40,824 nucleotides of DNA from positions 1 to 40,824 of IMG/VR virus record IMGVR_UViG_3300032722_000054; one strand, 5' to 3'. Shown here piece by piece: positions 4,632 to 29,244 of this stretch. Made by a program: the position numbers and the translations under genes. The notes beneath the pieces are model-generated. The model searched no databases. It was not told where the DNA came from and saw only the letters and a program-made list of their open reading frames with translations. Position 1 is the first letter of the stretch. Each line of letters begins with the position of its first letter. The stretch comes from a virus.

Positions 4632-5366
4632 TTGAACCACAACGTCGCGAGCCAGGTTCTCCCGCCCGCCCTAGCCGAGGAAAGCCTCGACGACGAGGTC
4701 AACGGAGCCGCGCGCCGGGATGACGGGACCGAGATTCCGCTCCCGATCGCGCTTGATCTCGACCTCGACACCATCTTTCTCCCCCAAATGGCTTTCGGCC
4801 AGGTCGTCAAGCCGTATGAAGTCGTCATTGTCCGGGAACTGCAGGACAGCGACCTGGCGGCGCTTCTCTCCCCGACGACGCCGAAGGCCCCGCCGAGCAT
4901 CAAGTCCATCCGCGCGATTCATCACAAGATTGCGCAGTTGCTGGCCCAGGGGATCCCAGTTGCGGATATCTCGCTGATGACCGGGACGCCCCCAGGGGCG
5001 ATCCGCCGGCTCGAGGCCGATCCGAGCTTCCAGGCCCTGCAAGTTCACTACACCGGAGTCGTGCAGCTCCAATTTGTCGATGTCGTCGAGCGAATGCGGG
5101 ACCTCGGCATCGCGGCGTTGGAGGAACTGAAGGAACGGCTGGAAGACCAGCCGGGAAGTTTTTCCAACGGGCAGTTGAAAGATCTGGTCGAGTCAGTGTT
5201 GACGAAACCGATGAGCGCGGTGACGTTGGCGAAAGGCTTTGCCGGAGGGGGAGCAGGTCGAGGAGGAGCCGAAGGCTCTCCCCCCGTTAAGCTCGAGATC
5301 GTCTTCAAATCGCCCAAGGCGATTGACGGGGCCAGGTTGGTGCAAGGGGAGGAGGAAGCAGAATGA
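4632..5366 (+). CDS. Putative terminase small subunit
   Basis: The protein is 244 residues from a TTG start; no ATG lies near the beginning, and the ribosome site is weak (GAGAG). An acidic N-terminal half is followed by a helix-turn-helix-like segment around residues 94-130 (IAQLLAQGIPVADISLMTG, then IRRLEADPSFQ), the layout of phage small terminase DNA-recognition domains. A helical oligomerisation stretch follows (RMRDLGIAALEELKERLED, residues 155-173), then a Gly-rich tail. It would recognise packaging sites and load DNA into the large terminase. Unusually, the large subunit is 11 kb away. A different HTH regulator is the main alternative. Confidence 0.65.
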   Translation: MNHNVASQVLPPALAEESLDDEVNGAARRDDGTEIPLPIALDLDLDTIFLPQMAFGQVVKPYEVVIVRELQDSDLAALLSPTTPKAPPSIKSIRAIHHKIAQLLAQGIPVADISLMTGTPPGAIRRLEADPSFQALQVHYTGVVQLQFVDVVERMRDLGIAALEELKERLEDQPGSFSNGQLKDLVESVLTKPMSAVTLAKGFAGGGAGRGGAEGSPPVKLEIVFKSPKAIDGARLVQGEEEAE

Positions 5367-7108
5367 GAAAACTTGCGCTTGCCGGATTGCTCGGCGTTGC
5401 CTTGGCCTTCTTGGTCCCTGAGGCTGGTAAGACCCAAACCACCCAGTGCATCGCCTCGGCCGCGGCCCAGGGAACCTCCGACGCGATCACGATTGCCGCT
5501 CTGCCGTGTGCCCTGACGACGAATTTGTTAATTCTATCCACGACGGCGAGCAATACAACGACGACTCCAACCTTGCAGCCCCTTGGACTCCCCGCGCAAA
5601 CCATCGTCCGAGCCAATGGAATCCCTCTTGCCGTCGGAGACATCGTGGCCAACGGCAAGGCCCTGTTGAATCCAACAGGGACCCAGTGGGTGTTGCTGAA
5701 CCCGGCAAACGTCTCGACGAGCGTCGGGTCAATTTCCGGCCTCGGGGCAAACGTCACCGCAGCGCTTGCACAGGGTCTCAATGGCGCAAGCGGGCTCGTC
5801 GGGGTGACAAACCCGACGCTAGCCGGGGCGAACCTCAACTATACCACCCCGCAAGCCTACGGCGCTTTGGCGAACTCAAACGGCACTCACGGCAACGGCT
5901 ACGACGACACGAGCGCGATCCAATCCGCCCTGACGGCCTCGGCGAATGGAACGATGTTCCTCCCCTGCGGCACGTATCGGATCACGGCTCCGTTGACGGT
6001 GACTGACGCCGCTCCGCGTAATGTGATTGGCGCGGGGGCGTGTACGAAAATTTTCTCCGATCAATCATCCGCCGGCGCTACGTTTTCATTCGTTCCGGCG
6101 ACTGGAGCATGCGGAGCGGGCGAGAATGCCGCGTGTGGGACGGTTTCTCATTTACAGTTTCTTGCTCCGCATACGTATAGCGCGGGGCAGATCGCGATAT
6201 ATTATAATAACACAAACGGGCCTCTTGTTGAGGACGTGGATTTTGTCGGGCAGTACCAGGGAATCAGTTACGTCGCCTCGTACAAACCGATGGTGCTGTT
6301 CTCCCGGTTTTTTGGAGGGTTCAACCATATCGTCAGCACGGATATTTCGTTCAACGCTGGCGAGCTGCTCGGGAACGAGTTTTACCTTTCTAGCGACGTT
6401 TCCGTCATCATCGCGCCGTCGTCGGGTTGCGCGGTTAATGTCAGCATCCGCAACGGCGATTCGGAAGGCAACGCCACGGCGTTTAAGCTAGGGAATATCT
6501 GCGCCGGCACGTTCTCTGAAAACTATGTGGAATGCACGTCGGCGCAAGCGGTTTTTAATTTTGTCGGCTCGGCTGGTCCAGTAGCGATGAGATTTGAGGG
6601 GAACAATCTCTCCCCGGCGGTTACGGGCGGCACGGGGAATATCGTGCTGCAAAATTTGAATAACGCGGTCTGGCAAGGAAATTCGCTTTACGGGGTGAAT
6701 TTCTCCTACGGCTCGCACGTTTCGCAAGTCAGGCTTCGGGCGATTGAGAATACGTCGAGTGGAACCTCATTCCCGGCAACGACGGTTTCAGGCTCCGGGG
6801 CTGGGGCCTCTGCGGCTTATGCCCTGACGGGTGACGATTTCTTCGGCTATGTGACCATGACGGCGGGTGGGGCGGGCATAACGTCGGCTGGGTCGATCAC
6901 GTTGACCTTCACGAATCCCATGGCGCCGAATCACGCGGTTTGCTTGGCTCAAGCATTGAACGGCACCGGGATTTGGACGACGCCCGTGTCGCTCGTGCTG
7001 AACTCGGGGGGGACTGGCTCTACTGTTATTCAATGGACCAACGCGAGTACGAATTTGACCAGCGGAAGCTACTACGGGATTTCGTATCAATGCGGGCCGG
7101 CGTCATGA
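5363..7108 (+). CDS. Tailspike-like beta-helix protein with signal peptide
   Basis: The ATG overlaps the previous stop (ATGA). The 581-residue protein starts with a Sec-type leader (MRKLALAGLLGVALAFLV, cleavage likely near residue 20-25). Around residues 165-215 lies a pectate-lyase/tailspike entry motif (YGALANSNGTHGNGYDDTSA, then FLPCGTYRITAPLTV). Long stretches of Asn-, Gly- and Ser-rich repeats follow, as in right-handed parallel beta-helices. The C-terminal 100 residues look like a separate beta-sandwich. About 11 cysteines are unusual for a cytoplasmic virion protein. The expected role is binding or cleaving host surface glycan; the signal peptide makes its site of action uncertain. Confidence 0.8.
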   Translation: MRKLALAGLLGVALAFLVPEAGKTQTTQCIASAAAQGTSDAITIAALPCALTTNLLILSTTASNTTTTPTLQPLGLPAQTIVRANGIPLAVGDIVANGKALLNPTGTQWVLLNPANVSTSVGSISGLGANVTAALAQGLNGASGLVGVTNPTLAGANLNYTTPQAYGALANSNGTHGNGYDDTSAIQSALTASANGTMFLPCGTYRITAPLTVTDAAPRNVIGAGACTKIFSDQSSAGATFSFVPATGACGAGENAACGTVSHLQFLAPHTYSAGQIAIYYNNTNGPLVEDVDFVGQYQGISYVASYKPMVLFSRFFGGFNHIVSTDISFNAGELLGNEFYLSSDVSVIIAPSSGCAVNVSIRNGDSEGNATAFKLGNICAGTFSENYVECTSAQAVFNFVGSAGPVAMRFEGNNLSPAVTGGTGNIVLQNLNNAVWQGNSLYGVNFSYGSHVSQVRLRAIENTSSGTSFPATTVSGSGAGASAAYALTGDDFFGYVTMTAGGAGITSAGSITLTFTNPMAPNHAVCLAQALNGTGIWTTPVSLVLNSGGTGSTVIQWTNASTNLTSGSYYGISYQCGPAS

Positions 7109-8694
7109 TCCGCGCTCTTCGCATCATCCTGGCGCTTTGGCTCGCGCTGGTCAGCATTGCCAACCCCGCGCTGGCGACGCCCCAAATTGGTTTGACGTTA
7201 TTCGGACAGGCGCATCTAGGCCAGTCAGTCATTGACCTAAATTTCGCGAAGGGGCCTCCGTATTATTTGAAAGGCGCGGCGGGTCCGTTGACGGAATCCC
7301 GAAGCACCTCCGCGACGTGTTTTGATCAAAGCAACAACCTCGTTCAAGTCGCGGCGTTTGTCCCCTGCATCGCGGGCGGGCAGTTGTGGAGCTATGAGGC
7401 GCGGACGAACTCGACCCGAAACAACTCGAATGTAACGGCGGCCGTTATTGGCGTTATTGGCTCGGGAGGTGTACTGCCTGCGAATTGGGTGATCAGCAAT
7501 CTGACTTCCGGGGTAGTCGTGAGCGTCTCAGCGTTGCCCGTGGCCAATGGATATCAGCAAGTCACCTTGAATTTCAACGGTACTCCCGGCACGTCGGGAA
7601 CGATTTATGTAAGCCCTGAACCGGGAGGCGGTAATGTCGTCCCCGCAACGTATGGACAGACGTGGTCAAAATCAGTTATTGCCTCATTTTCTAATACGAC
7701 AAATATTGGAGCGTCTTCGGGGCCTTTTTTCTATGAGTTAAATTCGGGCGGCGGAGGTTTGCTTCAACATTTGTTATCCGCGACAACACCGTTGACGCCG
7801 ACGCGTGTAAGTGTAAGCGCGACAAATTCTAATGTATCAACAGCACAACTATTTAGCGGATACCAAATTCAAGTAACGTCTGGGCTCGCGGTCAATTTCA
7901 ACATCACTCTCGCGCTAGACCAACTCGAACTCAACCCCAACCTCCCCGGCTCGGTCGCGTCGGCGACGGTAGCGGGCGGAGGCTCGCTGTACGTCGGCGC
8001 GTCGGGGACGATGACGTATAGCGGAACGGGCTGCACGACCAATCCGGTATTGAACGTCACGACCTCGGCGGGCGCGATCAACGCGGTTACGAGCGTGGCT
8101 ACGGCGGGCGTCTGCACGACGCTCCCCGTGGCGGGCTCAACGGCTTGGACGCCGGGCGGTGGACTGTCTGCCGGCTCGGGCGCGAGCTTCACGCTCACCC
8201 CGACGAACAACGCGGCCCAGGCGTTCCCGACCCCGCCGATCTTGACCACGAACGCGGCGGTCACGCGGAACGAAAGCCGTGTGTCCATCGCGACGCAATC
8301 TTGCGCGAATCCGTCTTTGCTCGCCATCGGCACGCCAAGCGCGCCGGCCAACACGTTCCAACAGGCGATAGCCATCATAACTAACGGCTCTCAAACGCCT
8401 TCGTTGCAAGTCTACCGCGCATTGGGGCAGTCCTATTTCGCGGCAGGCGGCGCTTTCCCCGGTCCGAATACAACATGGACGACGGGTGTGTCGGGCAAGA
8501 TCGCGTCGTCGATCAACGGCACGACGATGACGGACGTGTTCAACAACGGCGCGCCTTCGACCGGGACCAACACGGCGTTGGGCTCGATGAACTTGCTCGG
8601 CATAGGCAATGCTCCCGTGTTCGGGGCGCAAGCCTGGAACGGCGGAATTTCCCGCGTCGCGCTGGCGTGCGGAAGCAGCCTGACGGGTTATTGA
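7105..8694 (+). CDS. Fibre-type protein with signal peptide
   Basis: The frame is open further upstream, but the ATG at 7105 overlaps the preceding stop (ATGA) and begins a textbook signal peptide (MIRALRIILALWLALVS, cleavage after ...NPALA near residue 24). The 529-residue protein continues with an EARTNSTRNNSN segment common in phage tail appendage proteins. Gly-, Ser- and Thr-rich beta repeats follow, and the last 120 residues resemble a lectin-like sandwich. Six cysteines fall in three close or plausible pairs. A surface-binding fibre or adhesin is the best reading. Family membership is inferred from composition and position rather than a specific motif. Confidence 0.75.
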   Translation: MIRALRIILALWLALVSIANPALATPQIGLTLFGQAHLGQSVIDLNFAKGPPYYLKGAAGPLTESRSTSATCFDQSNNLVQVAAFVPCIAGGQLWSYEARTNSTRNNSNVTAAVIGVIGSGGVLPANWVISNLTSGVVVSVSALPVANGYQQVTLNFNGTPGTSGTIYVSPEPGGGNVVPATYGQTWSKSVIASFSNTTNIGASSGPFFYELNSGGGGLLQHLLSATTPLTPTRVSVSATNSNVSTAQLFSGYQIQVTSGLAVNFNITLALDQLELNPNLPGSVASATVAGGGSLYVGASGTMTYSGTGCTTNPVLNVTTSAGAINAVTSVATAGVCTTLPVAGSTAWTPGGGLSAGSGASFTLTPTNNAAQAFPTPPILTTNAAVTRNESRVSIATQSCANPSLLAIGTPSAPANTFQQAIAIITNGSQTPSLQVYRALGQSYFAAGGAFPGPNTTWTTGVSGKIASSINGTTMTDVFNNGAPSTGTNTALGSMNLLGIGNAPVFGAQAWNGGISRVALACGSSLTGY

Positions 8695-8704
8695 GGATTT
8701 GAAC

Positions 8705-9364
8705 ATGCAAGGTTTCGCAGGATTTGACAGGTCCGACTATCCCGGCAAGGCTGCGATGGACTGGCTGAAAGCCAATACGAACTTGCGTTGGTGCGGGTTC
8801 TATCTCGGCCCCGCGCCGAGCCATCCGAATACGAGCTGGATGGACGCGGACGACGCGGATTTCGAGGGCTGGGGTTTCGCGCCGATCTATGTTGGGCAAG
8901 AGACCGCCGGGCCGGGGAGCCATGTTGTCACGGCGGTTCGAGGAACGACAGATGGTCAGGATGCGTGTAAGTTGATGACGGCCGCGGGGTTCGACCTCGG
9001 CTCCGTCGTCTACCTCGATCTCGAAAACCCTGACCCGGTTCATCAAGCGCCGTATGTCGCCGCCTGGATCGACGCGGTGAAGGCTGGCGGGTTCTCGCCA
9101 GGGGCCTATACGAGTTTCATGGATGGGAAGCAGATCGCGGGGTTGCGGCCTGGGGTGAAGATCTGGGTCTTTCATGTCCCTTCGGTCATTCCGAGGAGAT
9201 TTTCCGGCAAAGTGTTTCCGACACCCGATCCGAAAACGAGCGGGTTTGCTGGCGCGAACGTCTGGCAGTTGTTCGACGCCGCGCTGATCGACGTTCCAGG
9301 GTTCCAGGGCGGAATGCTGGTTGACCTGAACTCGGCGGACTCGGCGGACCTGAGCAAGCCATAA
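8705..9364 (+). CDS. DUF1906 glycoside-hydrolase-like endolysin candidate
   Basis: The ATG at 8705 has GAGGAT 8 bases upstream; a TTG six bases earlier is less likely. The 219-residue protein matches the DUF1906 (Rv2525c-like, TIM-barrel) pattern: MQGFAGFDRSDYPG at the N-terminus, RWCGFYLGP, then VVYLDLENPDP around residues 100-112 with the acidic residues expected at the barrel end. A later Trp-rich strand contains NVWQLFDA. It has no signal peptide of its own. Placed directly before a holin-like gene, it is the likely peptidoglycan-degrading lysin. The exact bond cut is not known. Confidence 0.8.
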   Translation: MQGFAGFDRSDYPGKAAMDWLKANTNLRWCGFYLGPAPSHPNTSWMDADDADFEGWGFAPIYVGQETAGPGSHVVTAVRGTTDGQDACKLMTAAGFDLGSVVYLDLENPDPVHQAPYVAAWIDAVKAGGFSPGAYTSFMDGKQIAGLRPGVKIWVFHVPSVIPRRFSGKVFPTPDPKTSGFAGANVWQLFDAALIDVPGFQGGMLVDLNSADSADLSKP

Positions 9365-9380
9365 AGCGGAGGATGGAAAG

Positions 9381-9596
9381 ATGAACATATCGGCAAATTT
9401 CAAGGCTTGGTTGTCGGTCGCGATGGCGGTGCTCGGCGTGATCGCCTCGGGGATGCTCAAATTCCCCGACTCGATCCCCGACGCAACGCAGCATGTGATC
9501 GTTCAGTGGGACGCCTTTGTGCTCGGGCTGTTCACGGCCGCGAACGCCGTGCTGCATTGGCTTCCCGACACGAACACGACGGGAGCGCCGAAATGA
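9381..9596 (+). CDS. Holin-like protein
   Basis: GGAGG lies 8 bases before the ATG. The 71-residue protein has two hydrophobic helices: about residues 8-27 (AWLSVAMAVLGVIASGML) and 42-60 (WDAFVLGLFTAANAVLHWL). They are joined by a short polar loop and followed by a polar tail, matching the size and layout of two-helix (class II) holins. It lies between the DUF1906 hydrolase and further exported or membrane proteins. Holin function is inferred from context and topology; sequence families of holins are too diverse to name. Confidence 0.65.
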   Translation: MNISANFKAWLSVAMAVLGVIASGMLKFPDSIPDATQHVIVQWDAFVLGLFTAANAVLHWLPDTNTTGAPK

Positions 9597-10186
9597 TCGA
9601 GATTGTTCGCATTGGACCCGCGTTGATCGTGGGAATGCTGTTGCTGGCCTCGCCGGCCCTGGCGAAAGAAAAGCCGTTCCCGAATCAAGATGGCTCCGAG
9701 ACCCCGACGCCGGCCAGCGCGAACGCCGTGGCGGCCAACTCGCAAGGGCCGCTTGGCGCCTTGGCCGATCTCTTCGCGAGCGACTTCGACGCGGCAGAGA
9801 AGCTCGCGACCTCGACCACCATTCAAGATCCGAACGGCGCGGCGTGCTGGGCGGCGTTCAAGCCGTTCGGCGAGGTCTTGAAAGCCCATCCCGGCGTGTT
9901 CACGGGGAAACTTGCGACCGACATCGAGGCCAAGAGACTTGCGGTGATCGCGGCGAGGGCGCTCTGCAACAACGTCTCGTGCCGAACCGTGTTTGTCGAA
10001 GAGGCCAGCATGGCGCAGGGCTTCGTCAAGAATTTGCCGATCTCGGTCTCGGCCAACGCGACGCCGATCGACGTGTTCGCCCAGGGATGCGCGGCGATTC
10101 CGACGTTGCAAGTGACAGCCGCGACAACGACAGCGCCTGTGGCCACTCCGGGCGGTCCGGCTATCCTTACTCCGACTGGCAACTGA
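9593..10186 (+). CDS. Exported hypothetical protein, lysis region
   Basis: An ATGA overlap with the holin-like gene fixes the start. The 197-residue protein begins with a signal peptide (hydrophobic core IGPALIVGMLLLA, cleavage after SPALA near residue 24). A mature region follows with four cysteines (AACWAAF, ALCNNVSC, QGCAAI) that could form two disulfides, then a Thr/Ala/Pro-rich tail. No lipobox is present, so it is probably periplasmic rather than lipid-anchored. No enzyme motif is seen. Its position suggests a role in cell-envelope disruption or in modifying host entry, but this is inference. Confidence 0.7.
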   Translation: MIEIVRIGPALIVGMLLLASPALAKEKPFPNQDGSETPTPASANAVAANSQGPLGALADLFASDFDAAEKLATSTTIQDPNGAACWAAFKPFGEVLKAHPGVFTGKLATDIEAKRLAVIAARALCNNVSCRTVFVEEASMAQGFVKNLPISVSANATPIDVFAQGCAAIPTLQVTAATTTAPVATPGGPAILTPTGN

Positions 10187-10190
10187 CACC

Positions 10191-10790
10191 ATGCTCACTC
10201 ACCGCGAACTCGCCGAACGCGTTTTGCTGGCTTACAAGAACCCAGCGACGATCGACGTTGGCGGCGACGCGCGGTGTGTGGTTGAGATTCTGGAAGACGA
10301 GATCGTGATCGCGTTTCCCGGAACGAGTGATCTCGCCGGGTGGCTTCGCGACTTCTCCGCGTGGCCGAAAGCCGATGTCAACCTCGGACTGCTGCACGAA
10401 GGCTTCGCCGACGCGGCGAGGAGACTGTGGAGCCCGATTTACGCGGTGCTGCTGCAGGAACCGCCGGGAAGGCAAATTACCCTAACCGGACACAGCCTGG
10501 GCGGCGCGATCGCGCAGGACCTTGGCGGGCTACTGGCCCTCCACGCGTTTCTCTTTCGCGTCGTGACCTTCGCCGCGCCCCGCAGCGCCTTCGCGGCGAA
10601 TGTGACGCTGGGGCGCTTGCTGCAAAACGCGACCGAGGCCATGGCCTATGCTCATCGGGGTGACCTCGTTCCGAACTCACCACCCTGGCCGATCTGGAAA
10701 CATGTAGTGCGCCGAACAATGCTTGGCTGGCCTGACGCCCGCCCGATTGAAGATCACGCGATGTCACTTTATCTCAAGGATCTGCCATGA
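10191..10790 (+). CDS. Class 3 lipase family protein
   Basis: The 199-residue protein has the alpha/beta-hydrolase signature of Lipase_3: an oxyanion region AFPGTSDLAGWLRDF (residues 41-55) and the nucleophile elbow GHSLGGA with Ser102. It also has HRGDLVPNSP with Asp158 and a late EDHAMSLY with His189, so the full Ser-Asp-His triad is present. It probably hydrolyses esters in membrane lipids or the outer envelope. It sits inside the lysis module, overlapping the next gene by ATGA. No signal peptide is present, so it would need the holin or lysis itself to reach the envelope. Confidence 0.85.
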   Translation: MLTHRELAERVLLAYKNPATIDVGGDARCVVEILEDEIVIAFPGTSDLAGWLRDFSAWPKADVNLGLLHEGFADAARRLWSPIYAVLLQEPPGRQITLTGHSLGGAIAQDLGGLLALHAFLFRVVTFAAPRSAFAANVTLGRLLQNATEAMAYAHRGDLVPNSPPWPIWKHVVRRTMLGWPDARPIEDHAMSLYLKDLP

Positions 10791-11080
10791 GCGATGTTAC
10801 TCCTTCTCGCGGCGCGATGGCGTCGATTGTGCTGCCGGTGTCAGTTGGGCTGTTCGTGGCCGGTGCGGGATATTTGATTTCAACGATGACGGGGGTTTCG
10901 GGGCTCCAGGTCGCGTTGGCAGATCTGAAGGAAGGTCAGGCGAGGATTGAAAGGCTGATCGAATCGAAGATCGGCGAGATCGAGATCGTGAAGCAACGCC
11001 TTGCCACCGATGAGCAAAAAGAAGCCGACCATGAAGCGCAAGATGTGGCGGCAAGGCTGCTGAGCCCGGGAAGAAAGTGA
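10787..11080 (+). CDS. Membrane-anchored coiled-coil protein, spanin-like
   Basis: It starts in the ATGA overlap with the lipase. The 97-residue protein has one N-terminal hydrophobic helix at about residues 12-35 (IVLPVSVGLFVAGAGYLIST), then a charged helical region (LKEGQARIERLIESKIGEI...) to the end. That topology is shared by inner-membrane spanins and some small holin-associated proteins. Given the lysis neighbours, an envelope-disruption role is plausible. No outer-membrane spanin with a convincing lipobox was found next to it, so the assignment stays tentative. Confidence 0.65.
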   Translation: MSDVTPSRGAMASIVLPVSVGLFVAGAGYLISTMTGVSGLQVALADLKEGQARIERLIESKIGEIEIVKQRLATDEQKEADHEAQDVAARLLSPGRK

Positions 11081-11379
11081 GCCTGTATGCGGTTGTGCTG
11101 ATCTGTAACGCGATAGCAAATCCTTGTAATGAGGAGACTTCTTTGCGCGAAGTCATTGCGGTCTCGCCGTCGCCGGATGAGAAATCATGTTTTGCAACGG
11201 CGGATTTGATGAGGGGGAAGGTTGTGCATGATGTGGGGGAAATTGTGGTGGTGTTTTGTCGAGTTGTGCCAGAGTCGAATGGCTCGAGATTTGGTGGGAC
11301 GAAGGGGGCACCAGCGATCGGACATGTAGGGCCAGGAATTGGTGGAAATGCTGCACATAGTGGGGGAAAGAGCAGATGA
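11077..11379 (+). CDS. Cysteine-containing small protein, lysis region
   Basis: A GTG start overlaps the preceding stop (GTGA), and the end overlaps the next ATG. The 100-residue protein starts SLYAVVLICNAIANPCNEET and carries four cysteines in its first 62 residues (C10, C17, C38, C61). It ends in a Gly-rich tail. The short hydrophobic start could be a weak signal or anchor, but it lacks a proper lipobox. It resembles small exported proteins common in alphaproteobacteria and their phages; no name can be given. Confidence 0.6.
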   Translation: MSLYAVVLICNAIANPCNEETSLREVIAVSPSPDEKSCFATADLMRGKVVHDVGEIVVVFCRVVPESNGSRFGGTKGAPAIGHVGPGIGGNAAHSGGKSR

Positions 11380-11864
11380 AAAGGCAGGTTGTGGGGCTGA
11401 AGACCGCGAGAGTCCTGGAGGCCAAACCGGGGTGTATTCCAGCAGGGAGGGCTCGCGGGGTCAAGGCGTATGGAGTTCGGTATGAGAAGGCGTTAGCCCA
11501 GGTTCTTCCGCTGAATGCAATCCGAGGCCGGTGGTACGAGTTTGAAGACAAGAATGGCCACGGGTACTGCCAAACGGACTTCGACCTGCTCGACTGTGTG
11601 CTGGAATGTAAACATACCTGGACGGAAGACGGGCATGTGGAACTGGAGAAGTTGTACCTTCCGGTGGCCAGACTTGCCTGGCAACGGCCAGCTTTCGGCA
11701 TCGTTGTCGTGAAAAAGCTGGTGCCGGGGATGAGGAAGGTCGAAATCTGCCCCGACCTGGACTCGGCCATCGCCTCGGCCCGCCACGGCTATCGGGCGGT
11801 GTTTCACTGGATCGGGGGAAGTATCCTGAACCATGATGGTCGGGTTGGTGCAAAAGCCGCTTGA
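11376..11864 (+). CDS. Putative PD-(D/E)XK-type nuclease
   Basis: The ATG overlaps the previous stop. The 162-residue protein has a helix containing VRYEKAL (Glu37), then TDFDLLDCVLECKHTW with Asp70/Asp73 and E77-x-K79, then a strand-helix region with many aromatics. The E...D...ExK spacing fits the core of PD-(D/E)XK nucleases, where these residues bind metal and cut DNA. Family membership is inferred from this motif alone. As the last gene of the overlapping chain from 4632, it may act in DNA processing or packaging rather than lysis. Confidence 0.55.
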   Translation: MKRQVVGLKTARVLEAKPGCIPAGRARGVKAYGVRYEKALAQVLPLNAIRGRWYEFEDKNGHGYCQTDFDLLDCVLECKHTWTEDGHVELEKLYLPVARLAWQRPAFGIVVVKKLVPGMRKVEICPDLDSAIASARHGYRAVFHWIGGSILNHDGRVGAKAA

Positions 11865-11889
11865 CAGACAGGACCGTTCACACTAGCCT
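11861..11889 (+). promoter_or_regulatory. Possible promoter
   Basis: A perfect TTGACA overlaps the stop codon of the nuclease-like gene. Seventeen bases later is TAGCCT, a weak -10. It lies before the first non-overlapping gene (11943), where a new transcript would be useful. A hairpin GGGGAA-TG-TTCCCC at 11906-11919 lies in the leader. Confidence 0.35.
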
Positions 11890-11942
11890 ATCGAAGGACA
11901 ACTCTGGGGAATGTTCCCCGTTGCTGCAAAAGGAAAGCGACC

Positions 11943-12254
11943 ATGGCGAAGAGTGAAGGACGGATCAACAAGGCGCAGGAAAATGTTCATCGGGAGCATA
12001 TTGACCGGAGCAAGCTCGGCGGGGCGAAGGGCCGGGGCAGTGATGTTGGGGGTGAGAAACATGCGAACATGCGGGGGGTCCTGGAAGGCGGAAGCCGGGC
12101 TGAAGGCTTTGAACGCCCGATGATCCACGATGGGCTGAAGGGCGCGGTGGGGGAACTCCATCGGCAACATCCGCACAAGCATAATGACCATGGCCCGCAT
12201 CATGGGACGAGCACGCATGTGCGACATGAACCGGTTGGAAAAGTTTATCGTTGA
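11943..12254 (+). CDS. His-rich hypothetical protein, 103 aa
   Basis: AAAGGAAAG precedes the ATG. The protein starts MAKSEGRINKAQENVHREHI and is highly polar throughout. A His-rich C-terminal third contains ELHRQHPHKHNDHGPHHGTS, nine His within 27 residues, which could bind metal. There is no hydrophobic core, so it may be disordered or act as a small virion or scaffold component. It begins a run of three small hydrophilic proteins. No family recognised. Confidence 0.7.
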   Translation: MAKSEGRINKAQENVHREHIDRSKLGGAKGRGSDVGGEKHANMRGVLEGGSRAEGFERPMIHDGLKGAVGELHRQHPHKHNDHGPHHGTSTHVRHEPVGKVYR

Positions 12255-12266
12255 GGGGAGGGTTCG

Positions 12267-12476
12267 ATGGCTTACGACGCGAAAGGAGCGGGAGTTTACT
12301 CCCGAGTTCCTAACCTTGCTAAAAAAGTTGCAACGGATTCAAATCTGAACGAGCAGCAAAGGCAGGGCAATCGGGCCAATCGAGATATTGAAAATACCAT
12401 TGCGAATGATCCGAAAAGTTATGAGCCAGGATATGACTCGACGGCACATAATGACCTTCCCGGCTACGGACGATAA
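12267..12476 (+). CDS. Small hydrophilic protein, 69 aa
   Basis: GGGGAGGG lies before the ATG. The protein (MAYDAKGAGVYSRVPNLAKK...) is polar, rich in Asn/Asp/Gln, and ends DLPGYGR. No membrane segment, cysteine or known motif is present. Good ribosome site and tight spacing to both neighbours support it as a real gene. It resembles small uncharacterised proteins next to virion genes in other podoviruses only in size and composition. Confidence 0.65.
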   Translation: MAYDAKGAGVYSRVPNLAKKVATDSNLNEQQRQGNRANRDIENTIANDPKSYEPGYDSTAHNDLPGYGR

Positions 12477-12487
12477 GGACAACCTCC

Positions 12488-12793
12488 ATGGCTCCTAGGC
12501 TCAACGACACCAAAGCAATCGTCGCCATTCCGTTGTACGATGACAAGTACTGCCGTGGTCGCGCCGGGGAGCGGGATACTCTCCGCGCTGACCCGGACGG
12601 CGGGCGGGCCTACACGACTCGGAGAGCCCAGCCTGGGGTCATGCAGTATTCCTACGACGAGGAAATCAACGATGTGGTTGGGCGAGCTCGGCCCCACCCG
12701 ACCGCTGGCATCGAGTCCATGAAAGCCGCCGTTGGGTTTCTGGGGAAAAAGGTGGCGGAGAGCAGCTGCAAGATGGGAAAGTTCCGTCGATGA
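12488..12793 (+). CDS. Hypothetical protein, 101 aa
   Basis: The ATG follows AAGGACAACCTCC. The protein (MAPRLNDTKAIVAIPLYDDK...) is basic with many Arg, has two cysteines, and ends in a helix (AAVGFLGKKVAESSCKMGKF). The stop overlaps the next fibre gene (ATGA), tying its translation to the exported fibre cluster. No family recognised. Confidence 0.65.
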   Translation: MAPRLNDTKAIVAIPLYDDKYCRGRAGERDTLRADPDGGRAYTTRRAQPGVMQYSYDEEINDVVGRARPHPTAGIESMKAAVGFLGKKVAESSCKMGKFRR

Positions 12794-13404
12794 GGAAGAT
12801 TTTTGCAGCAGTAGGAGTCCTGCTTGGGTTGGGCTTGCCTGCCTCGGCACAAGTCATCCCATCCATCCCTGGCGCCCCGGTTGTCGCCTCTGGTGCCTGG
12901 ATGGGGCCGTATACCCCGCTGGTTCCGCTAAAGCGGGCATCCAACACCACGGCGTATAGCGGGAACCAGATTGTCTGCGGGGCCACCTGCTCCCCGATTG
13001 TCTTGACGGTCGCGGCGCAGAACACCGGGAAGCTGACCGTTTCCCGGATGGGGTTGTTGAAGTCGGGAAGCAGCACCACCAACGCGAGTTTTTCTGCCTG
13101 GTTCTACAGCCAGATTCCGACGCTGCCGAGCGGGGACCAACAGGCCTACACGGGACCTTACGCGGCTGATATGCCGTATTATCTCGGCAGCGCGACTTGC
13201 ACAAGTCCGACAGTGACGAGTGATGCGACTTCGCAAGTCTGGTACGAATGTAGCCTGTCGAATCCAAATGCGAGCGGGACGCTGCAGTGGACGGCCGGGC
13301 CGGGAAGCCAGAATATCTACGCGTTGATTTCCGTCCCGGCGAGCACGGCGTATACTCCGGCGAGCGCGGAGACCTTTACGCTGTATCCTAGCGGGTTTTA
13401 TTGA
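12790..13404 (+). CDS. Exported virion-like beta protein, 204 aa
   Basis: An ATGA overlap fixes the start. A clear signal peptide (MRKIFAAVGVLLGLGLPASA, cleavage after ASA) precedes a Ser-, Thr- and Gly-rich beta protein of the kind found in phage fibre tips or head decorations. Four cysteines occur as IVCGATC and the spaced pair ATC/YEC. The last residues, YPSGFY, end an apparent beta-sandwich. It is translated together with the next fibre (TGATG). The role is probably surface binding; the leader peptide is the odd feature. Confidence 0.7.
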   Translation: MRKIFAAVGVLLGLGLPASAQVIPSIPGAPVVASGAWMGPYTPLVPLKRASNTTAYSGNQIVCGATCSPIVLTVAAQNTGKLTVSRMGLLKSGSSTTNASFSAWFYSQIPTLPSGDQQAYTGPYAADMPYYLGSATCTSPTVTSDATSQVWYECSLSNPNASGTLQWTAGPGSQNIYALISVPASTAYTPASAETFTLYPSGFY

Positions 13405-15065
13405 TGAAGGGCTTGTTTGCCAGGGTCGGGCTTGCCGGGCTTGCGATTGCGGGATGGATGGCTGTTGGGCACGCCCAGACGGCCTCCATTCTCCCCTCCG
13501 CCGAGACTCAATTCTCCGATGCGAACGGCGCGCCATATGCTGGCGGCAAGGTCTACCTGTACGTCCCTGGGACGACCACCCCGAAGAACTCTTGGCAGGA
13601 TCCGAACACCACCACGCTGAACACCAATCCGGTTATCCTGGACTCCGCTGGCCGGGCGATCATTTGGGGCTCGGGGCAATATCGGGAAGTTCTGCAGGAC
13701 AGTCTCGGGAATACCATCTGGGACCAGCTGACCTACGCGATCAACCCGAGTTCGGCTAACGGATTCGCGAATGGGACTCTCGCGGGGAATACCTCAGGTA
13801 GTACTGGAGGGTTGAACTCCATCACGGTTGGGTCGGGGCTGACGCTGTCTGGCTCGGTGCTATCTGTGATTAGTGCGTATCAGACAATCGTCGCGGATAG
13901 TACCTCGCAAAGTGTAGTCTCGGGGTTTAATAATAGTCAGCATGTCGCGACGGGAACTCTGACGTACACCCTGCCGTTGTCGAGCACGCTGCCGAATGGG
14001 TTCATTTTCAAAATCTACGCCCTGACGGGAAATATCACCATTGCGCCGTATGCCTCGGATACGATCCAAGGACAGTCCGTTGGGGCGAATTTGGTCGTGG
14101 CGCAGGGGTCTGTGCTGACGTTGACTACCAATGCGAGTGGGACGTGGTATTACTCGAATTCGGCCATCCCGCCGATCGAGCCTCCATGTGGTCGATTGAC
14201 CTTGGTCACGGCTCAACCTGTGTTGGCCTCGCCGGCGACGAGCATTGGTAGCCTGTTTTATACCCCGTACAATTGCTCGACTGTTCCCGTAGTCGTGAAT
14301 GGCTCCATGGTAAATCTGCCGTTTACCGAGTATAGCCAAAGCCTGACCGACACGAGTCTAAGTCCCGCTGCTGCGACTGCTGGTGGCCTGTACGATGTCT
14401 TCGAGTGGTTGAATGGGACCTCGGTGGTCTTCACTCGGGGTCCTGCCTGGACAAATTCGACTTCCCGAGGGTATAGCCTGAATCGGGTGAACGGGTTCCT
14501 GGTCAACGCGACTGGTGTGACGAATGGACCGGCCTCCGGCGCGGGGGTTTACGTTGGCACCATCGCGGTTGATGCTGGCGGGGCAACGCTCACGTTCAAT
14601 CCGCAGCCTACGCCCGCTTCTGGTGGTCCGACAAACGGGGCTTGGATTGGAATCTGGAATCAATATAACCGTATTCCGCTAGCGGCTCAGGTGCAAGACA
14701 GTAAGTCTACTTGGCCGTATAATACAGCGACGTTTCGCGCTGCCGATGCGTCGAACAACAACCGCATAACGGTCGTAATGGGGCAAGCGGAAGATTCGTC
14801 CATAGTTACATATTCTGGGGCAATCTCAAGCAGTGTTTTCGCAACCTGCTTTGTTGGTGTTGGAGTTAACAGCATTGCGTCTCCTTCGGGTGTCATCGGC
14901 GGAGTGAACGATACGACAGCAACAAACTCGATCACCGCGACATATGCCGGAGCGCCGTTCTTGGGCCTTCAATACTATCAAGCGCTGGAAGCTGGTGGCG
15001 GATCTGGTACGCAAACATGGTCCGGCGGACAAAATATGCAACTTTCCGCAAGTCTGCGGTATTGA
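13404..15065 (+). CDS. Tail fibre protein with signal peptide
   Basis: The ATG at 13404 overlaps the previous stop (TGATG); a TTG three bases earlier is less likely. The 553-residue protein has a signal peptide (MKGLFARVGLAGLAIAGWMA, cleavage after GHA near residue 24). After it comes a classic podoviral head-binding module: FSDANGAPYAGGKVYLYVPG, then VILDSAGRAIIWGSGQYREV, as at the N-terminus of P22-type tailspikes. Repetitive beta regions and a C-terminal domain follow. The head-binding module argues that it is a true virion fibre, which makes the preceding leader peptide notable. Confidence 0.82.
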   Translation: MKGLFARVGLAGLAIAGWMAVGHAQTASILPSAETQFSDANGAPYAGGKVYLYVPGTTTPKNSWQDPNTTTLNTNPVILDSAGRAIIWGSGQYREVLQDSLGNTIWDQLTYAINPSSANGFANGTLAGNTSGSTGGLNSITVGSGLTLSGSVLSVISAYQTIVADSTSQSVVSGFNNSQHVATGTLTYTLPLSSTLPNGFIFKIYALTGNITIAPYASDTIQGQSVGANLVVAQGSVLTLTTNASGTWYYSNSAIPPIEPPCGRLTLVTAQPVLASPATSIGSLFYTPYNCSTVPVVVNGSMVNLPFTEYSQSLTDTSLSPAAATAGGLYDVFEWLNGTSVVFTRGPAWTNSTSRGYSLNRVNGFLVNATGVTNGPASGAGVYVGTIAVDAGGATLTFNPQPTPASGGPTNGAWIGIWNQYNRIPLAAQVQDSKSTWPYNTATFRAADASNNNRITVVMGQAEDSSIVTYSGAISSSVFATCFVGVGVNSIASPSGVIGGVNDTTATNSITATYAGAPFLGLQYYQALEAGGGSGTQTWSGGQNMQLSASLRY

Positions 15066-15066
15066 T

Positions 15067-15133
15067 TGGGACCAAGTCCCATCTCGGAATGCAGGAACCG
15101 AGTTAACAAGAAGCCCTGCAGAGGCAATGCCTC
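15067..15133 (+). promoter_or_regulatory. Three-hairpin leader of the next fibre gene
   Basis: Three exact hairpins follow one another: TGGGAC-CAA-GTCCCA (15067-15081), CTCGG/CCGAG (15083-15102) and GAGGC-AAT-GCCTC (15121-15133). The last abuts the ribosome site AAGGAG. No T run follows. They may stabilise the mRNA or set fibre translation. Confidence 0.45.
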
Positions 15134-15146
15134 AAGGAGAAAAGCG

Positions 15147-16496
15147 ATGATGAAGCGAACGTTGAAGACATTCCTTGGGGTTGGGGCGGCGGTTGCGCTG
15201 TTGTCCTCGGCTGCCTGGTCCGCGGGTTTTTTCACCAACGGCGTGCCTCCGGCGGGTGGGACGCAGTACCCGCTCACGGTGCCCCTCACCGGCAATGAAA
15301 CGGTGCCCGCCGATACGAACCTGACCAATGGTCAGAACCCGGCGAGTGAGGCGATCACGACGGGACAGATCGCCAGCCTTGCAGGTGGCTATGGCATCGG
15401 TTATCGGAATTTGCTGATTGGCGGTTCTGCCACGATCAACCTGTTCCAACGCGCGACGACTGGCGCGAGCCAGACGACGACGGTGGCCTACGGCGGCCCG
15501 GATCGCTGGGCGTATTGGTCGGGCACCAGCACGGCGATGACGGTGAGCCAGGATTCGACCGCGTCGGACGTTCCGGCTGGTGAGAAGTATTCGTTCAAGA
15601 TGGCGCGGACCTCTGGTCAGACCGGCGTTGTGCAGATGTGCATGGCGCAGGAGATCGAATCGGCCAATGTCTACCAACTGCAGGGGCAGACGGTCGAGCT
15701 CGACTGGAACGCCTACACCGGCGCGAATTTTTCCCCGGCCAGTCCGTACAACATGACGGCGTATGTCATCTGGGGCACGGGCACGGATGAGGGAATTTCC
15801 AAGCTGGCCTATGGGCTCAATGCTGGCGGCGGCGGTGGCTCGGCCTGGACGGGTCAGGCCAATGCGACGGCGGCTGTTGTCAGCCTTGGTGGTGTGAGCA
15901 CGGCGGGGCGCTATGCTGCCGTCGCGACCATTCCGCTGACCGCGACGGAAGTCGCCGTGGCCCTGTGCTATACCCCGACTGGCACGGCGGGGACGAATGA
16001 TTACGTCGCGTTGGACTCCATTCAGCTGGTCAAAAATCCGTCGGTGGCGAGCTTAGTCTCCACCACCCTCGGCTACAACGTCGCGAACGGCTTTCCGGCG
16101 ACCCCGTTCGAGCGTCGGCCGACGGCGGTGGAGACTTACCTTCAGCAACGGTACACGTACAGCATTGCGGAAGGCACGATCACTGCCGGCACGATCATGG
16201 TCGGTGGTGGCACGGCGCTGGGAACCACGACCACCTGCAGTGCGTTTATCACGTTCCCGACCTCCATGTTCAAAGCGCCGACATATACGAATGCGCTGAC
16301 GGCGAGCACGTTCAAGCTGGTAAGTGCGAGCCAGGCCGCGACGGCGTTGTCTACCCCGTTCTCGGCGACGCTTGGTGTCAATACCGTCTACGGCGCGAGC
16401 ATGAACTTCACCACTACCGGCATGACGGCGAAGGACTCGTGTGAGCTGGTCTCTGCGGCTGGTAGCGGCTTGATGGTGTTCAGCGGGGAAGAATAA
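15147..16496 (+). CDS. Fibre/appendage protein with signal peptide
   Basis: The frame opens earlier, but AAGGAG 7 bases before the ATG at 15147 decides the start. The 449-residue protein begins with a signal peptide (KRTLKTFLGVGAAVALLSSA, cleavage near WSA, residue 26). A segment YRNLLIGGSATINLFQRATT follows, then DRWAYWSGTS, a layout seen in phage tail appendages with galactose-binding-like domains. Four cysteines are present, two of them near the C-terminal beta domain. It ends with GEE shortly before a GGGGGC hairpin. A host-recognition role is likely; where it acts is open because of the leader peptide. Confidence 0.75.
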   Translation: MMKRTLKTFLGVGAAVALLSSAAWSAGFFTNGVPPAGGTQYPLTVPLTGNETVPADTNLTNGQNPASEAITTGQIASLAGGYGIGYRNLLIGGSATINLFQRATTGASQTTTVAYGGPDRWAYWSGTSTAMTVSQDSTASDVPAGEKYSFKMARTSGQTGVVQMCMAQEIESANVYQLQGQTVELDWNAYTGANFSPASPYNMTAYVIWGTGTDEGISKLAYGLNAGGGGGSAWTGQANATAAVVSLGGVSTAGRYAAVATIPLTATEVAVALCYTPTGTAGTNDYVALDSIQLVKNPSVASLVSTTLGYNVANGFPATPFERRPTAVETYLQQRYTYSIAEGTITAGTIMVGGGTALGTTTTCSAFITFPTSMFKAPTYTNALTASTFKLVSASQAATALSTPFSATLGVNTVYGASMNFTTTGMTAKDSCELVSAAGSGLMVFSGEE

Positions 16497-16553: not shown

Positions 16554-16572
16554 CCATAGTTTGATGGTCAAA
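16554..16572 (+). promoter_or_regulatory. Palindromic CCATRG-TTTGA-N3-TCAAA site, copy A
   Basis: CCATAG followed by TTTGATGGTCAAA overlaps the very start of the large terminase frame. The 13-base core is identical to the one at 35660 and close to that at 2842. Its position at the terminase start suggests control of the packaging and virion genes, either as an operator or as a phage promoter element. Confidence 0.5.
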
Positions 16573-17943
16573 GTTCACATGCCACAGCTTGACTTGACCC
16601 GAGTTGAATTTCCGGAAAAATTGCAATGTTTGTTCTCGAACAAACGCTACATCGTATTGTATGGTGGGAGAGGGGCCGGACGGTCCTGGGGAGTAGCCAG
16701 GGCTTTGCTAGCTCTCTCCACCGTCCAACCGTTGAATGTCCTTTGCGCCCGTGAACTGCAGAACTCCATCGACGAATCGGTGCATAAGGTGCTGAGTACC
16801 CAGATTGCCAAGCTGAACGTCGCGGACCTGTTTGAAGTCCAGCGGGACCATATTTATGGACCGGGCGGGACGAGCTTCAGCTACATCGGAATTAAGAACA
16901 ACGCGAATAAAGTTAGGTCGTTTGAGGGAATTGATATTTGCTGGGTGGAAGAGGCGAATAAAGTTAGCAAGAATTCCTGGCAGATTTTAATTCCCACCGT
17001 GAGAAAGAAAGGCTCCAAGATCATCATCACGTTCAATCCTGAACTTGAGTCCGACTACACCTATGTCCGATTCGTGAAGGAGGAGAAGAAAAACGCGAGG
17101 GAAGTCAAGAACGACGCCGGGGAGACTCTCTGGTGGGAGACCGACGACACCATCATCTGCAAGATGACCTACAAGGACAATCCTTGGTTTTTTGCTGACA
17201 CCGAACTCGTGCCGGATATGGAGAAGGCAAAGAAGAACGACTACGACGAATATCTGAATGTTTGGGAAGGCAATCCGGCACAGGTGCTCGAAGGCGCGGT
17301 GTACGCGAAGGAGCTCCGACGCGCCCAGACCGAAGGCCGAATCTGTTCCGTTCCGTATGAGAGGGAAATTCCGGTTGACACCTTCTGGGACCTCGGCCGG
17401 GCCGACAACACGGCGATCTGGTTCATGCAACGAGTCGCCATGCAGTACCGGATTTTGGAATACTTCGAGATCTGCGGGGAAGACGTTACGACGATTTTGA
17501 AAGAGTTGCAGAAGAAGAAGTATCTCTACGGCACCATGTTTCTCCCGCATGATGGGAAGCATAAGAAGCTGGTGTATAAGAACTCAATCGAGGAGATCGT
17601 GAGGAATTCCGGCTACAACGTCATCGTCCTGCCGAAGACTCCACAGCTCGACGGCATCAACGCGGCGAGGGAAATGTTCCCGAACTGCTATTTTGACGAA
17701 GAAGGTTGTGAAGACGGGCTCCACGCGCTTCGGCATTACAAGTATGAGATCAAAGATGGGCAGAGGTCGGCGACGCCCAAGCATGATGAGGCTTCCGATG
17801 GCGCGGACGCGTTCAGGTACATGGCGATGGCGAGAAGGCTCCCAAGAGCCAAGTCGGACCTGGCAGCTAGGTTGACTGTCAAATCCACGGCTGGCAGAAC
17901 GCTCGACCGCGTCAAACAAACCGCACTCGGATGGATGGGATAA
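16564..17943 (+). CDS. terL: Terminase large subunit
   Basis: The 459-residue protein carries the packaging ATPase and nuclease domains. Walker A is YGGRGAGRSW (residues 33-42) and Walker B is IDICWVEEAN (123-132), with a coupling motif near FNPE (157-160). The nuclease half includes the strand VDTFWDLGRADNTAIWF and the late DGADAFRYM, giving the usual acidic cluster. This pattern fits PBSX/Terminase_3-type motors that pump DNA into the prohead through the portal. The start is uncertain: ATG at 16564, a TTG at 16561, or ATG at 16579. None has a good ribosome site, and the palindromic site lies across this region. Confidence 0.93.
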   Translation: MVKVHMPQLDLTRVEFPEKLQCLFSNKRYIVLYGGRGAGRSWGVARALLALSTVQPLNVLCARELQNSIDESVHKVLSTQIAKLNVADLFEVQRDHIYGPGGTSFSYIGIKNNANKVRSFEGIDICWVEEANKVSKNSWQILIPTVRKKGSKIIITFNPELESDYTYVRFVKEEKKNAREVKNDAGETLWWETDDTIICKMTYKDNPWFFADTELVPDMEKAKKNDYDEYLNVWEGNPAQVLEGAVYAKELRRAQTEGRICSVPYEREIPVDTFWDLGRADNTAIWFMQRVAMQYRILEYFEICGEDVTTILKELQKKKYLYGTMFLPHDGKHKKLVYKNSIEEIVRNSGYNVIVLPKTPQLDGINAAREMFPNCYFDEEGCEDGLHALRHYKYEIKDGQRSATPKHDEASDGADAFRYMAMARRLPRAKSDLAARLTVKSTAGRTLDRVKQTALGWMG

Positions 17944-17946
17944 CCC

Positions 17947-20205
17947 ATGGCTGAATTTGGCGATGATCCGAGCCCTGCGGTGCTTTCTGGCGATCCAATC
18001 GTGCAGGAGGCGAGAAAGAGGTTTGACCGATGCTCGGAGTGGGAAGCGACGTGGAGAGGTCGATTCCAAGATGACATTCGATTCGCGAATGGGGACAGCG
18101 AGAACGGCTATCAATGGCCGGATGCGATCAAGAACTCGAGAGATAACTCAAACCGCCCTTGCCTGACGATGAATTTGATCGCGCAGCATAATGGAATGAT
18201 TTCCAACCAGGCCAGGATGAATAAATCCACCGTCAAATATGTCGGGATGGGGAACGGGGCAACGCAGGAGAGCGCGAATGTCTTCCGGGACCTGCATAGG
18301 TATATTGAATACCAGTCTCAGGCCCAGGATGCGTACACGATTGCCCGGCAGTTTCAGATTGACGGAGGAATCGGGTACTTTCGCCTGGTGACTGAATACG
18401 AACCAGGGACCTTTGACCAGGATCTGTACATCGCGCCGGTGCTTGACCCGCTGTCGATTTACATGGACCCGGATATTAAGCAGAAGTGTGGAAGTGATAG
18501 CATTTTTTCCCTCGCGTTTGACGACGTTCCGAAGGATGAGTTTTATGATGCGTATCCGAGCTTGAGGGGGAAGATGACCTCCCAGCCGCTTGGCATGGGA
18601 ACAATCTCGGGCGATTGGGTGACGAAGCATAAAATCCGCGTCTGTGAATACTTTCGGAAGATTCCGAAGGAGCATACCCTGGTCTCCTTTGTCCATCGAG
18701 GACAGAGACATGTTGTCCGCAAGGAAAAACTTGAAGACCTGGTCCGTCGCGGAGCTGCCAGAAGAGAAATCCTCAACGATCCGCAGACGAAAATCCGCGA
18801 CGCGGTAGAGCATGAGGTGGAGTGGTATCTCATTGCTGGGACGGAGGTCATTGACAAGACCGTCTGGCTCGGCAAGTACATTCCGATCATTCGAGTGATT
18901 GGGAAGGAGACTGTGATCGACGGGGAACTAGATCGGAAGGGGCATACCAGAGCGATGAAAGACGCTCAGAGAATGTTTAACTACAATGCCTCGGCTCAGG
19001 TCGAGTTCGGTGCCTTGCAGACCAAAGCTCCGTGGCTGGTGGCCGCGAAGGCAATTGAAGAACATGAGGCCATCTGGGCTACGGCGAACATCAACAATCC
19101 GAGCGTCCTCCCATTCAACCATGTTGACGCCGAAAACGCGCCAGATATGCCGATTCCGCCGCCGCAGAGAATCGAACCGCCGCAGGCTTCGCCGGCGTTC
19201 CAGACCGGCATGGAAACCGCAAGTAACCACATCATGATGGTGTCTGGGCAATTTCAGAACCAGATGGGAGAGCAGGGCAACGAACGAACCGGCGCGGCGA
19301 TTGGGAAGAGGCAAGCTCAGTCCGACACTGCAGTTTTTCATTTCCAGGACAACTACGAGTCCGCGTTGATCTTCCTCGGCAAGCAGATTATCGACATCGT
19401 GCCGAAAATCTACGACACCAAGAGGGTCAAGAAAATCATTGCTGATGACGGGGTCGAGTACGAACTTGAGATCGACCCGACATTGCGAGAAGGGTATCTC
19501 GAACGGCAAGCGCATGACGGAACGGTCATCAAACGAGTGTTCAACCCGAATGTTGGAAAGTACGACATCGCGGCGAGCGTTGGGCCGGACTTTGGCTCCA
19601 AGCGGCAGGAAACCCGCGAGGCCCTGACGTTGATACTGACTCAGGCCCCGGCACTCACGGGCCTTATCGGCGACCTGCTGATGAAATCCATGGACTTTGA
19701 AGCTGCGGATGAAGCCGCGATGCGGCTCCGTCGCATGATTCCGCCGATTGCTCTCGGCAAGGGGCCAAGTCAGATGGAGCAAGGGCTGCAACAGCAAGTC
19801 CAAGTGTTGCAAGCCGAGCTGGTCAAATTGATGGATAAGAACGCGAAAGACTCGATTAAGCTCGCTGGCAAGGCAGAACTCCGCGACATCGAGGTCTACG
19901 ACGCGGAAACGAAGCGCATGACTGCGCTGGCGAAAATGCTGCCAACCGACCCGGAGGGGATGAGGGCACTTGTGGAACAGCTCGTGCATGAAAGCCTTTC
20001 GACCGGACTGAACGCGGTGATGAAAGCCAACGCGCCGGAGTTGCCGGAGCAAGCGGGGGATGAGGCGCCAGTCGAACCCCCGCCGGTGCCTGGGGCGAAC
20101 AAGGCCCCGGATGGCGAGTGGTATCTGACCGATCCGACTCGGCATGGGAAATATCTCCACGTCGCTCCGCTCGCGCAGGAACACGCAAAGCCGAGGAGCC
20201 CCTGA
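17947..20205 (+). CDS. P22-type portal protein
   Basis: It starts 3 bases after the terminase stop. The 752 residues match the length and pattern of P22-like portals. The N-terminal region has RFDRCSEWEATWRGRFQDDI and a conserved NSRDNSNRPCLTMNLIAQ segment. A mixed core follows, and the last third is helical (QQQVQVLQAELVKLMDKN, residues 615-632), like the barrel or crown. The Pro-rich acidic tail is typical of a flexible end. Twelve copies would form the DNA channel at one capsid vertex and dock the terminase. The gene order terminase-portal supports it. Confidence 0.9.
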   Translation: MAEFGDDPSPAVLSGDPIVQEARKRFDRCSEWEATWRGRFQDDIRFANGDSENGYQWPDAIKNSRDNSNRPCLTMNLIAQHNGMISNQARMNKSTVKYVGMGNGATQESANVFRDLHRYIEYQSQAQDAYTIARQFQIDGGIGYFRLVTEYEPGTFDQDLYIAPVLDPLSIYMDPDIKQKCGSDSIFSLAFDDVPKDEFYDAYPSLRGKMTSQPLGMGTISGDWVTKHKIRVCEYFRKIPKEHTLVSFVHRGQRHVVRKEKLEDLVRRGAARREILNDPQTKIRDAVEHEVEWYLIAGTEVIDKTVWLGKYIPIIRVIGKETVIDGELDRKGHTRAMKDAQRMFNYNASAQVEFGALQTKAPWLVAAKAIEEHEAIWATANINNPSVLPFNHVDAENAPDMPIPPPQRIEPPQASPAFQTGMETASNHIMMVSGQFQNQMGEQGNERTGAAIGKRQAQSDTAVFHFQDNYESALIFLGKQIIDIVPKIYDTKRVKKIIADDGVEYELEIDPTLREGYLERQAHDGTVIKRVFNPNVGKYDIAASVGPDFGSKRQETREALTLILTQAPALTGLIGDLLMKSMDFEAADEAAMRLRRMIPPIALGKGPSQMEQGLQQQVQVLQAELVKLMDKNAKDSIKLAGKAELRDIEVYDAETKRMTALAKMLPTDPEGMRALVEQLVHESLSTGLNAVMKANAPELPEQAGDEAPVEPPPVPGANKAPDGEWYLTDPTRHGKYLHVAPLAQEHAKPRSP

Positions 20206-21095: not shown

Positions 21096-21097
21096 TC

Positions 21098-21307
21098 ATG
21101 GCAAAACTTGACTCGAAAGAACGAAACTCGCTCGCAAAAAGCTCCTTCGGCGAGCCCGCGAAACGCAAGTATCCCATGCCGGATAAGTTCCATGCTGCCA
21201 ATGCGAAAGCACGGGCGAGCGAGATGGAGCACAAGGGCAAGCTGTCGTCGAGTGAAAAAACCAAGATTGACGCGAAGGCGGATAGGGTGCTGGGGAAGAA
21301 GAAATGA
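21098..21307 (+). CDS. Small basic protein, 69 aa
   Basis: It follows the M15 gene by 2 bases, with the ribosome site GTAGGA in that gene's end. The protein (MAKLDSKERNSLAKSSFGEP...) is very basic, with the segment RKYPMPDKFHAANAKARASE and a Lys-rich end. Similar small proteins with a YPMPD core are widespread next to phage virion genes; their role is not known. It overlaps the next gene by ATGA. Confidence 0.75.
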   Translation: MAKLDSKERNSLAKSSFGEPAKRKYPMPDKFHAANAKARASEMEHKGKLSSSEKTKIDAKADRVLGKKK

Positions 21308-22441: not shown

Positions 22442-22445
22442 TCTT

Positions 22446-22628
22446 GCAAGGAGATTTCCTTGCCAGTTCTTAGTCCTGTCTGACTTTGCGGGGGAGGAAT
22501 TCCTCCCCCTTGCGACTGGAGCGCATAATCTCCTGCGGGGAATGCTCCCCTTGGTATCACTGAGGCTTTACCATCCTCAAACGCATAGGTCCGCGCGGAG
22601 TCGGACTAGCAGGGGCAGCGCCCCTTTT
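22446..22628 (+). promoter_or_regulatory. Six-hairpin leader of the coat gene
   Basis: The 200-base gap before the coat gene has no ORF but holds successive exact inverted repeats: GCAAGGA/TCCTTGC (22446-22463), a perfect 20-base palindrome GGGGGAGGAATTCCTCCCCC (22490-22509), GGGGA-ATGC-TCCCC (22537-22550), TGAGG/CCTCA (22561-22579), GTCCG/CGGAC (22589-22606) and GGGGC-AGC-GCCCC plus TTTT (22612-22628). The last is terminator-like. The group may tune coat expression relative to scaffold, by attenuation, RNA processing or mRNA protection. Confidence 0.6.
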
Positions 22629-22641
22629 GGAGACTGCCATC

Positions 22642-29240: not shown

Positions 29241-29244
29241 TCTC

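Follow-up and report, generated by a model that had tools for sequence, protein, structure and literature searches.

Fibre and head genes of the window

The DNA analysed here (the window) is a virus record of 40,824 bases with P22-like head genes. A block at 16561..23865 (+) contains the genes for TerL (16561-17943, +), a P22-like portal (17947-20205, +), a VanY-like D-Ala-D-Ala carboxypeptidase (20118-21095, +; 2.3e-7), a scaffold (21647-22441, +) and the major head protein (22627-23865, +); TerL, portal, scaffold and major head protein indicate a P22-like phage. The position of the VanY-like peptidoglycan enzyme between the portal and scaffold genes is unusual. An Hc3/gp10-like gene (26195-27697) and an ejection-type protein gene (29245-29991) follow, and among these tail/ejection genes is a sulfotransferase-like gene (28170-29237, +) with a Pfam Sulfotransfer_3 match of 7e-6, at the cut-off. 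The portal is 25-41% related to portals of Acetobacter phage phiAX1, Pseudomonas phage PAE2 and other podoviruses. A scan with the coat protein gives relatives in three MAG contigs, two of them labelled Xanthobacteraceae and Rhizobiales, and on these labels a Rhizobiales host is likely.

The head gene block adjoins the last of five genes, termed here A to E, whose products are fibre/spike proteins or orphans. A (581 aa, 5363..7108, +) shows a leader at about aa 1-24, a small module with Cys29/Cys49 and a pectate-lyase-like beta-helix at aa 180-234 (Pfam Pect-lyase_RHGA_epim 4.6e-5, under the curated cut-off; putative pectin lyase 7chu, 2.5e-4). The first module of A is found in two other contigs, L023 and L082, with a leader in both. 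B (529 aa, 7105..8694, +) is an orphan with a leader at 7105-7176, predicted cleavage between ANPALA and TP, and six cysteines in the mature part. C (204 aa, 12790..13404, +) is also an orphan, with a leader at 12790-12849, predicted cleavage between PASA and QV, and four cysteines. Single-protein scans with A, B and C gave no relatives. Between B and C lies a lysis region (8699-10790, +) encoding an Rv2525c-like glycoside-hydrolase-like protein, a protein with a leader and a class 3 lipase. The leader-carrying protein of this region (197 aa, 9593..10186, +; leader 9593-9664, predicted cleavage between SPALA and KE; four cysteines) has no family match.

Sec-type leaders are found at the starts of A (5363), B (7105), C (12790), D (13404) and E (15147), as the preliminary description had reported, and at 9593. 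All five of A to E pass a rule-based Sec/signal peptidase I scorer that recovers 10 of 11 known E. coli leaders as a positive control, and residue shuffles of the N-termini match the observed scores in only 0-12 of 500 trials. Among the remaining 42 genes of the window the only passes are a membrane, holin-like open reading frame at 9381 and a gene at 36485 (−). The latter (36485-36862, −) encodes a small leader-carrying protein with a conserved AACCGPxDAH motif, away from the fibre module; a relative (10481) is situated beside the leader-carrying fibres of contig L012. Cleavage sites of A-x-A type had been proposed for four of the five proteins. Those of B (NPALA), C (PASA) and D (GHA) are clear, but in E the proposed WSA places a tryptophan at −3, and cleavage between SSA and A is to be preferred. 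The cleavage site of A is poor, the weakest of the five; the two relatives of A (L082, L023) show leaders before the same mature start. The protein at 9593 does have a leader of the kind described, but its n-region is net-uncharged and it fails the scorer on the charge rule only.

The start codons of A, B, C and 9593 overlap the preceding stop codon in the form ATGA, that of D lies in a TGATG stop-start overlap, and that of E is behind the Shine-Dalgarno sequence AAGGAG. These starts are predictions and many in-frame start codons are present, so that translation might truly begin downstream and the leaders never be made. The stop-start overlaps and Shine-Dalgarno sequence at the leader starts, the lack of a Shine-Dalgarno sequence at most downstream starts and the presence of leaders in all 27 divergent E homologues make such an artefact very improbable. 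Better-supported downstream starts had been named as a possible objection; the leader start codons of the five genes are well supported by their sequence context.

By inspection, none of the window leaders shows a lipobox with Cys at +1 (signal peptidase II), and none of the proteins that carry them shows a C-terminal hydrophobic anchor as in pIII of filamentous phage. A to E contain no muralytic or lytic domain and in this respect do not resemble SAR or signal-peptide endolysins.

D, a tailspike with a leader

The D gene starts with a leader (13404..13475, +; predicted cleavage between VGHA and QT) followed by a tailspike head-binding domain (aa 25-110; 13476..13733, +) and a C-terminal receptor-binding part related to the Pam5 tail spike (14256..15065, +). 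In profile comparison with the PDB, aa 25-110 match the structures of the Pam1 head-binding domain (7eeq, 6e-17) and the Pan3 spike (9vyg, 7e-14), in agreement with the earlier statement that a podoviral head-binding module comes right after the leader. The AF2 model of full-length D superimposes on 9vyg (Foldseek) with an rmsd of 1.4-1.7 Å over 78 columns; the leader lies outside the folded domain, with low confidence there. For the C-terminal part a low-confidence model suggests a C1q/TNF-like trimeric-lectin fold.

The same head-binding domain is found in P22/Pam1-type tailspikes (7eeq, 9vyg; Pseudomonas phage PAE2, Rhodoferax phage P26218, Xanthomonas phage PBR31), and P22-like TerL, portal, coat and Hc3 are also common to these systems and the window phage. 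However, known spikes of this type start at the domain and are leaderless, whereas D has a Sec leader first, and the leader-carrying forms acquire cysteine pairs. In 18 leaderless D homologues, which include cultured phages with annotated starts, the initiator Met lies within a few residues of the predicted +1 residue of the leader-carrying forms. Thus the head-binding domain begins at the initiator Met in isolates and other contigs, and the predicted cleavage would recreate the leaderless N-terminus. In the D precursor the domain is not N-terminal; it would become so if the leader were cleaved.

Over the stretches examined, each contig has one head-binding protein, which carries a leader in 11 contigs. 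In the whole window, the domain of D is the sole recognised head-binding domain. This favours D as the phage's own spike and not a decoy copy. No virion anchor is recognised in B, C or E. Short leaderless head-binding proteins are found in L023 (4768-5826), L036 (5180-5911) and L082 (complement 5281-6135), where the other fibres carry leaders. A leaderless cytoplasmic anchor combined with exported fibres is a possible second architecture in L023, L036 and L018/L082.

The E family and cysteine pairs of leader-carrying proteins

E consists of a leader (15147..15221, +; cleavage between SSA and A or between WSA and G), a carbohydrate-binding-like beta-sandwich with Cys165-Cys274 (15408..16046, +; phrog_4492 tail fiber, 5e-20) and a C-terminal part with variable cysteine pairs (16047..16496, +), which in the window is Cys364-Cys432. 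A scan with E gave 20 loci and a scan with the E alignment gave more, most of the relatives being metagenome contigs; E was not found in cultured phages by tblastn or in named genomes by contig search. A leader is present in 27/27 complete members of the leader-carrying group, the window and L080 included, mostly behind a Shine-Dalgarno sequence. The median pairwise identity of these proteins is 47% (first 26), and the leaders thus persist under sequence divergence. It is the type of leader, not its sequence, that is conserved, in the 27 E relatives as well as in the 11 contigs with leader-carrying head-binding domains and the two relatives of A.

In several P22-like contigs E is directly upstream of TerL, as in the window, and the order E-TerL-portal is kept. 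L058 displays D and then E, both with leaders, in the window order. In other E carriers the major head protein is of another kind (phrog_212) and there are tail-fibre genes with leaders and phrog_863 domains; the leader-carrying fibre trait thus spans at least two head lineages. L081 encodes four leader-carrying fibre-module proteins, one of which is a 927-aa head-binding tailspike, and L012 encodes five leader-carrying fibre-like proteins in a row. Within the phage fibre module of L012, arabinofuranosidase-like proteins with leaders are found at 7849-8898 and 9471-10481. Acetobacter phage phiAX1 (L054; PMC8566455), which is inducible with mitomycin C from host ATCC 21760 and is classed as incomplete by PHAST, has leader-carrying proteins at 26418-27383 and 27387-29312, between the tail accessory and gp10-like genes; one of the pair is a GH66 enzyme, and the mature cysteine counts are even (4, 6).

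Leaderless forms are found as well. The related isolate PAE2 is leaderless, and the cultured Bradyrhizobium phage ppBeUSDA76-2, used as a negative control, shows no leader in 25 genes. A 54.6 kb contig (L079) from a Xanthobacteraceae-family genome carries a leaderless E homologue with a different N-terminal module. Fibres of the phrog_4492 and DUF2793/GTA types share the E sandwich or its C-terminal domain; the homologues examined are leaderless and without the core cysteine pair, unlike leader-carrying E.

The preliminary description had noted many cysteines, often in pairs, in the mature parts. Cysteines are indeed many, and they evolve in pairs, but their abundance is not diagnostic, as the leaderless D homologues are equally rich. 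Parity is distinctive: the cysteine count of the mature part of leader-carrying E is even in 27/27 sequences (26/26 plus L080), and other residues show no such parity. In the alignment of these proteins the cysteine columns are gained and lost together as pairs. Cys165-274 is present in 27/27, the two cysteines of 312-318 occur in the same 10 sequences (10/10, Fisher 1.9e-7) and those of 398-421 in the same 16 (16/16, Fisher 1.9e-7), these p-values overstating independence as the sequences are related. The pair 356-366 is found in 11 sequences, with one exception that uses 364; 364-432 is found in seven and 64-68 in three. In the leaderless homologue of L079, positions 165 and 274 are Ser/Asn, and both core cysteines are absent from the leaderless fibres L084, L085 and L092 (3/3).

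The same restriction to leader-carrying forms is seen in three unrelated modules, the E lectin, the D head-binding domain and the A N-terminal module. The QCF/NGC cysteine pair of the D head-binding domain is present in six leader-carrying forms and in zero leaderless ones. Cys29/Cys49 of the A module are present in three leader-carrying forms (A, L082, L023), and neither is found in the leaderless Rhodoferax phage copy. Over the viral contigs, even counts are found in 62/67 leader-carrying proteins vs 92/146 open reading frames without a leader (Fisher 2.6e-6, subject to the same relatedness), and in 46/51 leader-carrying proteins when the E family is removed. Among the exceptions with odd counts are two window proteins, A with 11 cysteines and D with three. 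The confinement of paired cysteines to leader-carrying forms suggests an oxidising compartment, and as evidence it is independent of the leaders themselves.

Hydrophobic N-terminal segments may have other roles, and A lacks a good cleavage site. The segments could therefore stay uncleaved as membrane-targeting or trimer-assembly segments, with the fibres waiting at the inner membrane on its cytoplasmic side. This is improbable, since the n-h-c pattern and the small −1 residue are kept in 27 divergent E proteins, the even and pairwise covarying cysteines of the leader-carrying forms point to an oxidising compartment, and leaderless homologues manage without the segment.

Proposed export of the fibres and assembly of the virion

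From the computed leaders and their conservation, the head-binding domain and the cysteine pairs peculiar to leader-carrying forms, we infer export, cleavage, disulfide formation and attachment at the time of lysis. The fibre/spike proteins would be made with cleavable Sec signal peptides and exported to the periplasm of the host, which would be Gram-negative and probably one of the Rhizobiales; there, signal peptidase I would cut the leaders and the fibres would fold with disulfide bonds. Heads would presumably be packaged in the cytoplasm. Once holin and endolysin had broken the envelope, virions would come into contact with the fibres already in place, and assembly would end with attachment of D to the tail machine through its exported head-binding domain. 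Export is well supported by the sequence evidence, and joining of the virion is an extrapolation from it; the whole sequence of events, from Sec export to docking at lysis, is given somewhat better than an even chance. A difficulty is that cytoplasmic heads and periplasmic fibres must somehow meet. P22 spikes join heads last and do so in vitro, and late docking is therefore plausible. Also against docking of exported fibres is the short leaderless head-binding protein kept by the E-carrying relatives L023, L036 and L018/L082; the exported fibres thus may not always be the anchor.

The main rival is that the proteins are exported but have no place in the virion, and act, in the periplasm or after release, as lectins and depolymerases to block receptors, serve as decoys, or clear envelope or exopolysaccharide around the dying cell. 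This applies especially to A, B, C and E, in which no domain for anchoring to the virion is recognised. Leader-carrying enzymes without a head-binding domain, e.g. the GH66 protein of phiAX1 and the arabinofuranosidase-like proteins of L012, fit such a role, as does the separate leaderless head-binding protein of some relatives. However, in D the leader is fused to a domain for attachment to the virion, neither a further head-binding protein nor a fibre without a leader is recognised in the window, and a decoy needs no leader as lysis would free it. A purely secreted role is accordingly rated as a minority possibility, though a substantial one. The preliminary description had left the choice between a secreted system and a route of tail maturation; tail maturation fits best, the mature N-terminus of D being the only virion-attachment domain in the window.

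Exported receptor-binding proteins have a precedent in pIII of filamentous phage, whose Sec-exported, disulfide-bonded domains are made in the periplasm. But pIII has a membrane anchor and is assembled as the particle is extruded, whereas the leader-carrying proteins of the window show no C-terminal anchor on inspection and their head-gene context is that of a tailed phage. Tailed-phage morphogenesis is taught as cytoplasmic. Proteins of tailed phages that use host Sec during lysis are known, the signal-peptide endolysins (fOg44 Lys44 and others; PMC6116005). Signal-peptide and SAR endolysins are lytic enzymes; the leader-carrying proteins of the window are fibre/spike proteins. No account of exported tail fibres of tailed phages was found in the open-access literature, subscription journals and preprints being outside the scope of the search. 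Thus the spike domains are known and the compartment would be new.

It is an even proposition that some tailed phages, probably infecting Rhizobiales and drawn from two or more head lineages, complete their virions outside the cytoplasm, with fibres secreted, oxidised and docked during lysis. If so, there would be a second assembly compartment, and host Sec and Dsb would take part in producing infectious particles. The route would yield disulfide-stabilised adhesins that survive outside, in soil or water, and such spikes might misfold when expressed in the cytoplasm. It would also explain the signal peptides on spike genes in many environmental contigs, which annotators may call host genes. 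For any fibre family, the paired-cysteine signature offers an easy way to test for the compartment.
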